In this document: piece by piece, positions 5,051 through 12,334 of the stretch | Layout: every line of letters starts with the position of its first letter | How positions within the stretch are numbered: the first letter of the stretch is position 1 | Assembly (NCBI GenBank): GCA_014584695.1 | Contig: JACTMI010000004.1 | Coordinates: 1-64,000, forward strand | Length of the DNA: 64,000 nucleotides | Direction of reading: 5' to 3' | From: Acidobacteriota bacterium | GTDB taxonomy: Bacteria; Acidobacteriota; Thermoanaerobaculia; Multivoradales; JAGPDF01 | The notes under the pieces: model-generated | Seen by the model: the letters and a program-made list of their open reading frames with translations, nothing else | Databases searched by the model: none | Told to the model about the DNA's origin: nothing | Position numbers and translations under genes: made by a program

Positions 5051-5135
5051 GAGCGAGCCGACAGACTCGCGACCGCGGCGGGGTGAGGGCCCCGGATTCA
5101 CTCCGGGGCCCGAGGGGAGGGCGCGTGCCCTCCCC
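5051..5135. repeat. Structured intergenic repeat, copy A
   Basis: An 85-base element, about 85% identical by eye to the two copies at 12146-12230 and 12249-12334. It holds three hairpins: a 5-bp stem GCGAG/CTCGC, a second stem GGCCCCGGA/TCCGGGGCC around a TTCAC loop, and a 9-bp stem GGGGAGGGC/GCCCTCCCC around GCGT. The second stem differs in sequence from copies B and C yet still pairs, a compensatory change. A partial copy of the tail (GTGAGCCGCGCG and GCCCTCCCC) follows at 5142-5165. The region 4969-5190 otherwise holds no gene. Confidence 0.75.
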
Positions 5136-5190
5136 TTGCAGGTGAGCCGCGCGTGCCCTCCCCTCTGCAATCGCTACCTGGTCGCCGAGA

Positions 5191-5196
5191 TAGTAT
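5191..5196 (+). promoter_or_regulatory. Putative -10 hexamer TAGTAT
   Basis: TAGTAT lies 10 bases before the ATG of the DUF2007 gene and downstream of repeat copy A. It fits the TANNNT pattern seen elsewhere in the window. Confidence 0.35.
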
Positions 5197-5206
5197 GGAG
5201 CCCACC

Positions 5207-5461
5207 ATGGACGATTGGGAGATCCTCGAGACCCTGGGCACCGAGGAGGACGCCGCGCTGATGGTCGGCTACCTCGAAGCCGAAGGCATTCCGGCCGCGG
5301 TCGAGTCGCTGCTCTTCCACCAGGAGCCGGTAGCTTTCGGGCAGCTGGGCCAAGTCCACGTCCGCGTGCGCAGCGAGGACCTCGAGCGGGCCCGCGCGCT
5401 GCTCGACGAGCGCGAGCGATCGCCCGCGGCCGGCGACGAGCCGTCCGCCGCCGCGGAGTAG
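5207..5461 (+). CDS. DUF2007-type putative signal-transducing protein
   Basis: An 84-residue protein. DDWEILETLGTEEDAALMVGYLEAEGIPAAVES followed by a VHVRVRSEDLERARALLDE ending matches the DUF2007 fold (a small ferredoxin-like alpha/beta domain often called a signal-transducing protein). The ATG at 5207 is preferred because GGAG sits 6 bases before it; an in-frame ATG at 5195 would add four residues. It is 4 bases upstream of a Ser/Thr kinase gene, so a shared role in signalling is a reasonable inference. Confidence 0.75.
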   Translation: MDDWEILETLGTEEDAALMVGYLEAEGIPAAVESLLFHQEPVAFGQLGQVHVRVRSEDLERARALLDERERSPAAGDEPSAAAE

Positions 5462-5465
5462 CGGA

Positions 5466-7196
5466 ATGGGTCGCCTCGCGGCCGGCAGCCGTCTCGGGCG
5501 GTACGTCATCGTTCGCCCGCTCGGCGCGGGCGCCATGGGCGAGGTCTATCTCGCCGAGGATCCGCAGATCGGGCGCCAGCTCGCGCTCAAGACGGTCCGC
5601 GTCGAGGAGGGGCGGCCGCACGAGCTCGAGGAGCGCAAGCTGCGGCTGCTGCGCGAGGCGCGCGCGGCCGGCCGACTCCTCCATCCCAACATCGTCGCGC
5701 TGTTCGACGCCGGCGAGGACCAGGGGGTTCTCTACCTGGCCTTCGAGTTCGTCGAGGGGACCGACCTCTCGGACCGGATCCGCGCCGGTCCGCCGCTGTC
5801 GCTGGGCGAGGCGCTGTCGATCGTGCGGCAGGCCGCGGAGGCGCTCGATTTCGCGCACCGCCAGGGGGTCGTCCACCGCGACATCAAGCCGAGCAACCTG
5901 ATGCTGACGCGCTCGGGCCAGGTCAAGGTGGCGGACTTCGGCATCGCCAAGCTCGCCGACCAGACCTCGGACCTGACCATGACCGGCTCGGTGGTCGGCA
6001 GCCCGCACTACCTCTCGCCCGAGCAGATCCGCGGCGAGGAGCTCGATGGCCGCAGCGACATCTTCTCCCTCGGCGTCCTGTTCTACGAGGTGCTCTGCCA
6101 TCGCCGCCCGTTCGAGGGCGAGACCCTGACCACTCTCGTCTACCAGATCCTCCACCACGAGCCCGCGTCGCTGGTGGTCGCCCGGCCCGATCTGGGAGCG
6201 CGGGTCGAGCACCTGGTGCGGCGGATGCTCCACAAGGATCGCGACCAGCGATTCGCCACCGCCGCCGACGTGGCCCGCGAGGTGGAGGCGTGCGAGCGCG
6301 AGCTGGCGCCGGCTCTCCTGGCGGCCGCCGCCGCGCCGGAGACCGAGATCCTCGAGGCGACCCGCCGGATGCCTCCGGCGGCGGCCCGACCGGTGCCGGC
6401 GGGGACCGCGGCGACCGCGGCGGTGGCCCAACCGGCCGCGGCGCTGCCGCCGGCGACCGCCGCCGCGGCGCCCGGCGGAGCCGGGAGCCGGAAGGTGGCG
6501 CTCCTGGTCGCGGCGGCGGCGGTCCTGCTGGCGCTCGTCGGCACCGGCCTGTTCCTGTTCGGTGGGTTCGGCGCCCGGAGCGCCAAGGCGCCGCCGGCCG
6601 TGCCGAGCGACGGCGCCGAGCCGACACCGCGACCGCTGCCGACCCCGACCCCGGTCGCCGAGGAGCGCGACTCGCAAGGCGAGGCGTCGCCGCTGCCGCA
6701 GCCCGAGGGGATCCCGCCGACCCCGGCGCCGACTCCGGTCGCGACGCCGGCACCCGAAATCCCGGAGCCGACGGCGACGCCGCGGCCCCTGCCGACGCCG
6801 ACGCCGCGCCCGCTCCCGACCGCCGCTCCGACCCCGGTGCCGACACCGGAGGAGGCCCCGCGGGTCGAGCCGACCGCCGAGCCGGAGGATTTCTCGGGGC
6901 CGTTCGACCGCGAGATGACGACCGGCATGGCGCTCTCGTTCGACGTCGAGCCCGACGACGCGATCGTGCGGGTCAACCGGATCGTGATCGGTCAAGCGCG
7001 CGAGTGGAACTCCAAGAGGCGCGACGGCCGCGCCTACGACCTGCCCCGGCCGGGCCAGCACCTGATCCGGATCGTCAAGGAGGGGCGGGTGTACGTGATC
7101 CTGGCGCACGCCAGCGCCGGCGCTCCTTCACCGACCCAGATCGTCGTCGACCTCGAGCCGGGGGCGCGCAAGTCGCGGCGCCGCGGCGGAGGCTGA
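5466..7196 (+). CDS. Membrane-anchored serine/threonine protein kinase
   Basis: 576 residues. The Hanks-type kinase domain (about 10-275) has glycine loop GAGAMGEV at 20-27, ATP-binding Lys42, catalytic HRD at 137-139, Asn144 and DFG at 157-159, all intact. An Ala/Pro linker leads to one membrane helix near 343-365. The outer part begins with an unusually long Thr-Pro-rich linker (repeats of the type PRPLPTPTP, about residues 385-470). It ends in a small beta-rich domain of about 90 residues (DREMTTGMALSFDVEPDDAIVRVN onward) that resembles a PEGA-like module. Expected to phosphorylate Ser/Thr in response to an envelope signal. Co-operonic with DUF2007 and M16 proteases. Confidence 0.92.
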   Translation: MGRLAAGSRLGRYVIVRPLGAGAMGEVYLAEDPQIGRQLALKTVRVEEGRPHELEERKLRLLREARAAGRLLHPNIVALFDAGEDQGVLYLAFEFVEGTDLSDRIRAGPPLSLGEALSIVRQAAEALDFAHRQGVVHRDIKPSNLMLTRSGQVKVADFGIAKLADQTSDLTMTGSVVGSPHYLSPEQIRGEELDGRSDIFSLGVLFYEVLCHRRPFEGETLTTLVYQILHHEPASLVVARPDLGARVEHLVRRMLHKDRDQRFATAADVAREVEACERELAPALLAAAAAPETEILEATRRMPPAAARPVPAGTAATAAVAQPAAALPPATAAAAPGGAGSRKVALLVAAAAVLLALVGTGLFLFGGFGARSAKAPPAVPSDGAEPTPRPLPTPTPVAEERDSQGEASPLPQPEGIPPTPAPTPVATPAPEIPEPTATPRPLPTPTPRPLPTAAPTPVPTPEEAPRVEPTAEPEDFSGPFDREMTTGMALSFDVEPDDAIVRVNRIVIGQAREWNSKRRDGRAYDLPRPGQHLIRIVKEGRVYVILAHASAGAPSPTQIVVDLEPGARKSRRRGGG

Positions 7197-11555: not shown

Positions 11556-11619
11556 GGCGGACGTTTTCCGCTCGGCTTTCGCTCCGAGAACGAGGTTGCT
11601 CAGTGTAACATGGCGAGTG

Positions 11620-12087
11620 ATGTCGACCGACGGTTTCGGGGCGCGCGCGCTGGCCGAGGAGGGGGTCGCTCTCTGCCGGCGCAGCGAATGGGACAAGGGC
11701 ATCCAGCTGCTGGGCAAGGCGGTGGGGGCGAAGGGGATGGGCGAGGACCTGCCCGGCGTCGCGTACTCCTACCTCGGCGTCGGCGTCGCGCGCCTGCAGA
11801 AGCAGCTGCGCGAAGGGCTGAAGCTGTGCGAGCACGCGGTGCGGATCCAGTTCTACGAGCCGGACAACCACATGAACCTGGCCAAGGTCCACCTCCTGAC
11901 CAACAACCGGCGCGGGGCGGTCGAGGCGATCGCGCGCGGGCTCAAGCTCGACCCGCAGCATGCCGGGTTGCGCGGTCTGCGCCAGGAGATCGGCGTCCGC
12001 AAGCGGCCGGTGCTCAAGTTCCTCGGCCGCAACAACCCCATCAACCGCCTGCTCGGCCGCATCCGCCACGACTTCGCGGGCGAGTGA
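11620..12087 (+). CDS. Small tetratricopeptide-repeat protein
   Basis: 155 residues with three TPR-like units (LAEEGVALCRRSEWDKGIQLL; AYSYLGVGVARLQKQLREGLKLCEHAV; NLAKVHLLTNNRRGAVEAIARGLKLDP) and a basic C-terminus (RKRPVLKFLGRNNPINRLLG). The ATG at 11620 is the best start; an in-frame ATG at 11554 would run back over the divergent gene's start. Likely a protein-interaction adaptor. The shared intergenic region suggests co-regulation with the divergent TPR/cNMP protein; function unknown. Confidence 0.65.
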   Translation: MSTDGFGARALAEEGVALCRRSEWDKGIQLLGKAVGAKGMGEDLPGVAYSYLGVGVARLQKQLREGLKLCEHAVRIQFYEPDNHMNLAKVHLLTNNRRGAVEAIARGLKLDPQHAGLRGLRQEIGVRKRPVLKFLGRNNPINRLLGRIRHDFAGE

Positions 12088-12145
12088 TCCGACACTCGCG
12101 CGAAGTCTCCCAGCCGAGCGCAGAATCTCCTGGCGTACCAGCCCA

Positions 12146-12230
12146 GAGCGAGCCGCGAGGCTCGCGACCGCGGCGGGGTGAGGGCAGCGGATTCACTCCG
12201 CTGGCCGAGGGGAGGGCGCGTGCCCTCCCC
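12146..12230. repeat. Structured intergenic repeat, copy B
   Basis: 85 bases with three consecutive hairpins: GCGAGCC/GGCTCGC around a GCGA tetraloop, CAGCGGA/TCCGCTG around TTCAC, and GGGGAGGGC/GCCCTCCCC around GCGT. Nearly identical to copy C, which starts 18 bases later in the same orientation. The stretch 12088-12145 before it holds no gene. Confidence 0.8.
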
Positions 12231-12248
12231 TGTGTGAACGAACCACCG

Positions 12249-12334
12249 GAGCGAGCCGCGAGGCTCGCGACCGCGGCGGGGTGAGGCCAGCGGATTCATT
12301 CCGCTGGCCGAGGGGAGGGCGCGTGCCCTCCCCC
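12249..12334. repeat. Structured intergenic repeat, copy C
   Basis: A tandem copy of the repeat with the same three hairpins, differing from copy B at only a few positions. It ends 2 bases before a TATACT hexamer of the ferredoxin reductase gene, so the last hairpin abuts the presumed promoter. Confidence 0.8.

Follow-up and report, generated by a model that had tools for sequence, protein, structure and literature searches.

A three-hairpin palindromic repeat with a probable CTGA target, dispersed behind stop codons in an Acidobacteriota genome

Three copies (A, B and C) of an 85-base intergenic unit, each folding into three hairpins in a row, lie in the first 64,000 nucleotides (positions 1-64000; hereafter the window) of contig JACTMI010000004.1 (C16) of an Acidobacteriota bacterium (GCA_014584695.1; 4.35 Mb, 48 contigs), which raises the question of whether such a unit is a mobile element, a structure maintained by its host, or both. 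Our comparisons indicate that it is a real, structured repeat, similar to repetitive extragenic palindromes (REPs), that it probably targets CTGA and that its core of three hairpins persists while its ends decay, and the way in which it moves is proposed here from sequence. The copies are dispersed, their fold covaries, relatives hold empty sites, and the copies adjoin CTGA, have a left part of near-fixed length and run one way. As judged from the alignment of copies, the 85 bases make up the core of a longer element of ~207 nt, in which CTGA is followed by a left part of ~58 nt, the core, and a right part of ~63 nt that closes with CTGA. We think it probable, by a modest degree, that this is a non-autonomous composite palindromic element moved 3' of CTGA by a single-tyrosine (Y1) transposase of the HUH (histidine-hydrophobic-histidine) type, whose core outlasts the ends and may form a structure in the 3' untranslated region (UTR).

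A preliminary description of the window, made from its letters alone, gave the coordinates of the units correctly (Table 1; C ends at 12333), as it did the partial tail copy behind A and the GCGA tetraloop in stem 1 of B and C, but its account of stem 1 does not extend to copy A, which has the loop GACA and one C.A mismatch. The genome-wide count and covariance model suggested there revealed further copies: unit B gave 66 blastn matches at E<=1e-3 in the present genome, partial ones counted, and a covariance model built from 47 copies gave 54. Blast on the loci fetched from this genome returned 54 hits with a coverage of 55 or more of the 85 bases, which group into 39 clusters; 47 of these hits were kept in alignment A1, from which six headless hits and a further one, interrupted by a 1-nt insertion, were left out. 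Among 148 genomes of the class, matches were found in five, namely the present one (at least 30), G001 of the same genus (2), G006 of another genus of the same family (4), G007, likewise not of the present genus (2), and G116 of another family of Thermoanaerobaculia (5), under stricter filters than those that gave the 54 model matches. A search of 84,980 species genomes with one exact pattern, which diverged copies escape and in which the present genome is perhaps not included, returned six stretches in three assemblies (G001, G006 and G116). That pattern had zero matches in viral contigs, the B-C stretch had zero in plasmids, and no Rfam family scored above its gathering threshold at the repeat, the best sub-threshold match (E 0.92) lying on the opposite strand. 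No description of the element was met in the literature searched on palindromic repeats of Thermoanaerobaculia and on REPs with opal stop codons.

The three-hairpin fold is supported by compensatory change across the five Thermoanaerobaculia genomes. Unit B folded as RNA reached a z of -3.9 and unit A folded as DNA a z of -4.4, with 0/200 shuffles as good in each case. Over the 47 full copies of A1, 95.6% of cells pair, and two-sided change was observed in 29 cells compared with 8.9 in shuffles (0/500 as high). Counted by pairs, of which 3 show such change, the result was not above shuffles (mean 2.8; 414/500 as high), and thus covariation within this genome is confined to three pairs of the middle stem (helix 2); helix 3 hardly varies. 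Alignment A3 combines the present genome with G001, G006, G007 and G116, and comprises 35 matches at E<=5e-5 from 21 selected sources, 12 of them loci of the present genome; a further 22 matches, weaker (E up to 0.01) and for the most part on the opposite strand of the palindromes, were not included. In A3, two-sided change was found in 15 of the 26 pairs, compared with 6.6 in shuffles, and in 76 cells, compared with 23.8 (0/500 as high), counts that carry the caveat of an alignment fitted to the model; pairing partners slid by 1-3 columns scored far worse. In G116 the stems differ widely in sequence, and the GCGCGG-N-GGGGTGAA-like linker persists, together with the hairpin-2 loop TTCAC (4/5 copies) and a hairpin 3 of the GGGGAGG/CCTCCCC type. 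The earlier view that the fold is under selection draws its support from this covariation across families.

An alternative helix, formed by GGGGTGA in the linker and TCACTCC from the loop and arm of hairpin 2, was also considered. It pairs in 97.7% of cells in the present genome, with no covariation, and in 94.5% across families, with one two-sided cell (88/500 shuffles as high); hairpin 2 is preferred, and a switch between the two helices is possible. The loop of hairpin 1 reads G-N-N-A in 45 of the 47 copies and ACGA in 2, and as its third base is C in 30 of the 47, GNRA is not the rule. Loops of the G-N-N-A type may point to single-stranded DNA rather than RNA, a point for which no confirmation was met in the literature searched. 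The 3' arm of the same hairpin takes a Watson-Crick form in 25 copies and a tandem G.A form (GGCGAGC or AGCGAGC) in 22 of the 47, with no single-step intermediate between both forms at these two places, and wherever hairpin 1 is complete in G006 and G007, it has the G.A form. The latter was examined as a pointer to the + strand and was set aside, as it came out less stable than the Watson-Crick form in energy calculations.

The extent of the complete element was obtained from copies at unrelated places. Locus L035, behind an acetyl-CoA carboxylase gene in the present genome, and L056, behind an alpha/beta-hydrolase gene in G001, have in common a 58-nt left part (75% identical), preceded by CTGA and CTGG, respectively, and a core that is 94% identical, and their right parts are alike as far as GCCCGCGCTGA and then diverge. 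In L027 of the present genome, the left part measures 59 nt and the right part 63 nt, ending in GCGCTGA, and a complete length of 206-207 nt therefore follows from these three loci. The right hairpin was recognised by eye in seven copies, five of which end in CTGA (L035, L027, L056, L152 and L153). In L152 and L153, both of G116, the core stands between left hairpins of the form CTGA..TCAG (z -7.0 and -7.9) and right hairpins of the form TCAG..CTGA; TCAG feet were found in L035, L056, L152 and L153, and most copies of the present genome have no conserved TCAG. By analogy, tetranucleotides 5' of the end hairpins might act as guides that pair with the cut sites. The left part itself, as judged from its register, belongs to the element: 23 leaders agree at 37.2% of positions at offset 0, compared with 27-33% at other offsets (z 17-18 versus shuffles). 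Iterated partial modules, both heads and tails, were also seen among the copies, and slippage between short repeats, GTGAG for example, would probably explain them.

All copies had been described as lying just before gene starts, and attenuators had been named among their possible roles. The genomic context contradicts the former, since 38 of the 39 clusters lie downstream of a gene on the same strand (two of them overlapping the end of that gene) and in 20 the next gene is convergent, so that the cluster faces its end, whereas in the other 19 the next gene is on the same strand, and a placement behind genes gives no support to attenuators before them. Fifteen clusters begin 55-59 nt past the stop codon, and by our reading three more do so if the count takes in a small gene that had been skipped (L039) or the iteration of heads (L021, L031). 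Where 40-70 nt separate stop and unit, 20 of 21 stops read CTGA, compared with 59 of 140 in other genes (p=2e-6); the counts are 20/21 versus 59/108 when only TGA stops are considered (p=1.9e-4), and 31/39 over all clusters (p=2.7e-5), the last superseding a test in which genes cut by the locus end were left out (24/31 versus 49/114, p=0.001). The window has 35 CTGA tetranucleotides outside genes, 22 of them stop codons, and another 206 inside genes. Most of the placement at stop codons can thus be attributed to a CTGA target combined with the loss of gene-breaking insertions, and the finding of only one antisense cluster in 39 is somewhat more one-sided than these two factors account for.

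This placement could also be read as the work of the host, with the core being an RNA device, either a bidirectional terminator or a block to 3' exonucleases, that was selected in the 3' UTR and copied behind genes by recombination, so that mobility would be secondary. The sense orientation of nearly all clusters agrees with such a reading, as do a structure kept across families, a core conserved far beyond the left part, and the frequency of convergent neighbours (20/39 clusters versus 32/115 other gene ends in the same loci, p=0.011). It does not, however, need a common left part, a fixed distance or a preference for CTGA; moreover, no run of T follows hairpin 3, where the tails read TTTCAG or TGTGAG, and none of the six terminator-like matches in a consensus terminator scan of window positions 1-20000 falls at a copy. 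We regard a mainly host-selected structure as rather unlikely.

Comparison with relatives revealed sites at which the element is absent. Orthologues of 19 element-bearing genes, which by Pfam include GAPDH, acetyl-CoA carboxylase, an M24 peptidase and an enzyme of the 2-oxoacid:ferredoxin oxidoreductase type, were sought with a single joined query and recovered in G001-G003. They provided 43 flanks: in 17 the alignment extends to the final residue and the stop codon is in the same position, and in the others the stop lies no more than 63 nt from where the match ends. Neither leader nor core was seen by eye in these 43 flanks, and blast with the core and 23 leaders (E<=0.01) returned a single 26-nt stretch of 84.6% identity; the covariance model found no match in G002 and G003 and two in G001, on other contigs. 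At the B/C locus, the C-terminal end of the upstream gene is identical in place in G001 and is followed by a 73-nt spacer without the element, and in G002 the spacer, likewise without it, measures 125 nt. At the A locus, all seven relatives compared have neither the DUF1697 gene between its neighbours (a phosphoesterase gene and the next genes) nor the element, so that gene and element may have been gained together or one after the other. This joint absence would suit an attC-like end of a gene cassette, with genes gained along with the element, but all 19 of the upstream genes sought have element-free orthologues in G001-G003 and the copies are dispersed; the cassette explanation is largely refuted and we consider it extremely improbable.

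In the explanation that we favour, namely a non-autonomous mobile element, movement would proceed by single-strand HUH/Y1 chemistry, as in REP elements and the IS200/IS605 insertion sequences (ISs), and the enzyme joining the element 3' of CTGA would be a transposase that either works in trans or has since been lost. Its left part, as suggested by the least decayed copies, would be a hairpin with a CTGA..TCAG-like foot, and its right part a linker and a hairpin. As most CTGA sites outside genes are opal stop codons, surviving insertions would often stand directly behind stop codons and in sense. Cores would then have multiplied locally by slippage and been kept nearly unchanged by selection or homogenisation as the ends decayed, and the kept core would most likely be a structure in 3' untranslated RNA that protects the 3' end or helps termination, which is the weakest step of the proposal.

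The contrast between core and ends is considerable. Core identity is 92.9% between clusters and 94.1% within them (9 pairs), and between clusters it ranges from 99.7% in the hairpin-3 stem, 97% in the hairpin-2 loop and 94.7% in the linker to 91.6% in the hairpin-1 stem, 87.8% in the hairpin-2 stem and 74% in the hairpin-1 loop. The left part is nearly randomised between loci, yet its length is kept. With a core ~93% identical while the left part is near-random, the core has been kept by selection or by homogenisation, that is, copying between places. A role in stabilising RNA, one of those first suggested, is possible. More speculatively, and with low confidence, we propose a mobile 3' UTR module, for which the CTGA target would make opal stop codons a safe haven and whose core would be a host-maintained signal at the mRNA 3' end, common to dozens of unrelated genes. 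If this is true, a target of only four bases is enough to direct a very small palindromic transposon to stop codons, unrelated genes receive the same structured 3' end without being broken, and the core kept, the ends lost and the empty sites in sister species constitute a natural experiment.

Several observations weigh against a mobile element of this kind, beginning with the fact that we infer movement itself from sequence. Y1_Tnp matches number 39 in the family (30 loci fetched) and 6 in G116 (all fetched), 36 loci being looked at in total, and in a joint reading of match positions none of the 45 lies within 5 kb of a match to the covariance model, the nearest being ~5.4 kb away on contig C9 of the present genome. 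No IS200-type protein scored above cut-off in the five carriers, with weaker matches in four, and in the present genome PF07282 is absent and tnpB was not found. Both sites in the window are exceptions to CTGA, with GTGA before B and, before A, CCGA 24 nt past a TAG stop, and the G001 copies are preceded by CTGG and GTGA. Among the recognised right hairpins, L025 ends in CTCA and L029 not in CTGA, and in the other clusters, which include most copies of the present genome, the right part is not recognisable. When leaders were compared with gaps (n=18), their similarity exceeded that of shuffles slightly (0.628 versus 0.591), and they are thus close to saturation. As a conserved hairpin in the present genome the leader was rejected (mean z 0.10, n 23); being rich in C, it might be a Rho site. 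In addition, the balance of G-T to A-C wobbles, 5 to 3 in A1 and 8 to 6 in A3, gave no signal of a preferred strand.

The Y1_Tnp genes also bear on whether the repeat is a classical REP, or a bacterial interspersed mosaic element (BIME), moved by a REP-associated tyrosine transposase (RAYT) of its own, the cognate REP no longer standing beside its gene. Four such genes exist in the present genome, with REP_Tyr_transpos as the best NCBIfam match, below cut-off, and hairpin 1 is reminiscent of the REPs of Pseudomonas. No GTAG or GTGG tag precedes hairpin 1, where a GGAG-type sequence stands, and several of these genes have repeats of their own. The RAYT of locus L043 (contig C6) stands between two copies (1159-1226 and 1922-1980) of a separate palindrome, GGGGACAGGCACG..CGTGCCTGTCCC, which bears no relation to the present repeat, and the Y1_Tnp paralogues of L045 (1330-1377 and 3019-3126) and L046 (1330-1382) have common AGGTGCCAGCCGAGTTGT repeats upstream, with more copies downstream in L045. 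Similarity to the element within the 36 loci is short and isolated only, the best stretches being one of 24 nt in L098 (E 0.001) and one of 43 nt in L156 (E 7e-5), and a RAYT-borne REP family is, in our assessment, improbable. The original suggestion of a REP-like mobile element holds in kind, in view of the dispersed palindromes, empty orthologous sites, iterated modules and REP-type Y1 genes, and fails for a REP linked to a RAYT; similarly, a RAYT-type transposase, which was to be looked for, is represented by the four Y1_Tnp genes, none of which is linked to copies. Long palindromic repeats of the GTAG type were also noted in G116, where they flank a weak Y1_Tnp match (L159, 1296-2113).

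Table 1. Positions in the window of the three copies, their parts and the adjoining genes
Feature	Position	Strand	Remark
Gene upstream of A, DUF1697 protein	4390..4968	+	
CCGA where the CTGA target is expected, copy A	4989..4992	+	24 nt past the TAG of the DUF1697 gene, so no stop codon; position deduced from the usual 58-nt left part
Left part (leader), copy A	4993..5050	+	extent deduced from 55-59 nt in other copies
Core A, three hairpins	5051..5135	+	loop GACA; middle stem GGGCCCCGGA/TCCGGGGCCC
Partial tail copy behind A	5136..5163	+	similar tail iteration in other copies
Gene upstream of B	11617..12087	+	weak TPR_2 match slightly below the Pfam cut-off
GTGA in the CTGA target position, copy B	12084..12087	+	includes the TGA stop of the TPR gene; sole exception among 21
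Left part (leader), copy B	12088..12145	+	58 nt
Core B	12146..12230	+	
Hairpin 1 of B	12148..12165	+	loop GCGA
Hairpin 2 of B	12182..12206	+	loop TTCAC
Hairpin 3 of B	12209..12230	+	nearly invariant
Joint between tandem cores B and C	12231..12248	+	18 nt
Core C	12249..12333	+	
Gene downstream of C, pyridine-nucleotide oxidoreductase type	12353..13741	+	start placed by comparison with G001

Two further observations concern the surroundings of the copies. The sole Rfam match above threshold in the window is a tRNA gene at 10-82 on the minus strand. In G006 (L058, 3453-3995) and G007 (L059, 3233-3384), the matches form an intergenic tandem group that adjoins a homologous long open reading frame, in both cases with a YGDVALHG/GGVACDPCRW-like stretch.

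Among known systems, the BOX elements of pneumococci are modular repeats with a variable number of inner modules, and they differ from the present repeat in sequence, host and placement. An intrinsic terminator is expected to consist of a GC hairpin and a run of T, whereas the present copies have no such run. REPs, BIMEs and REP doublets forming hairpins (REPINs), together with their RAYTs, resemble the repeat in their many intergenic palindromic copies, mosaic iteration and a tetranucleotide tied to a hairpin, and differ in that an 85-nt three-hairpin core within an element of ~207 nt, CTGA in place of GTAG or GTGG, and no linked RAYT were found here. GTAG REPs are reported often to supply the stop codon to flanking reading frames (PMC3733652), and TnpAREP to cut at CT (PMC8266576). 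Derivatives of IS200/IS605 are described as inserting 3' of a fixed tetranucleotide that the tetranucleotide at their own end resembles, and as having hairpins close to both ends without requiring inverted terminal repeats (PMC6006769). The non-autonomous members of this group, of the palindrome-associated transposable element (PATE) type, are similar in that the left end adjoins a fixed tetranucleotide, here CTGA for 20 of 21 intact left parts and 31 of 39 clusters, and differ in that neither an IS200-type tnpA above cut-off nor a tnpB was found in our searches. The same paper reports class 3 TnpA-Y1 genes, among others in Acidobacteria, that are flanked by atypical secondary structures with a CnGA foot, of which Solibacter usitatus has up to about 600 copies (PMC6006769). 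The CTGA foot of the present element fits CnGA; the class 3 motif YV[VI]xEQ was absent from the 33 loci parsed among the 36 Y1_Tnp loci, and none of the Y1_Tnp matches lies near a copy. The repeat thus supplies sequences with which the CnGA-foot Y1 transposases of Acidobacteria, for which experiments were called for (PMC6006769), can be tested.

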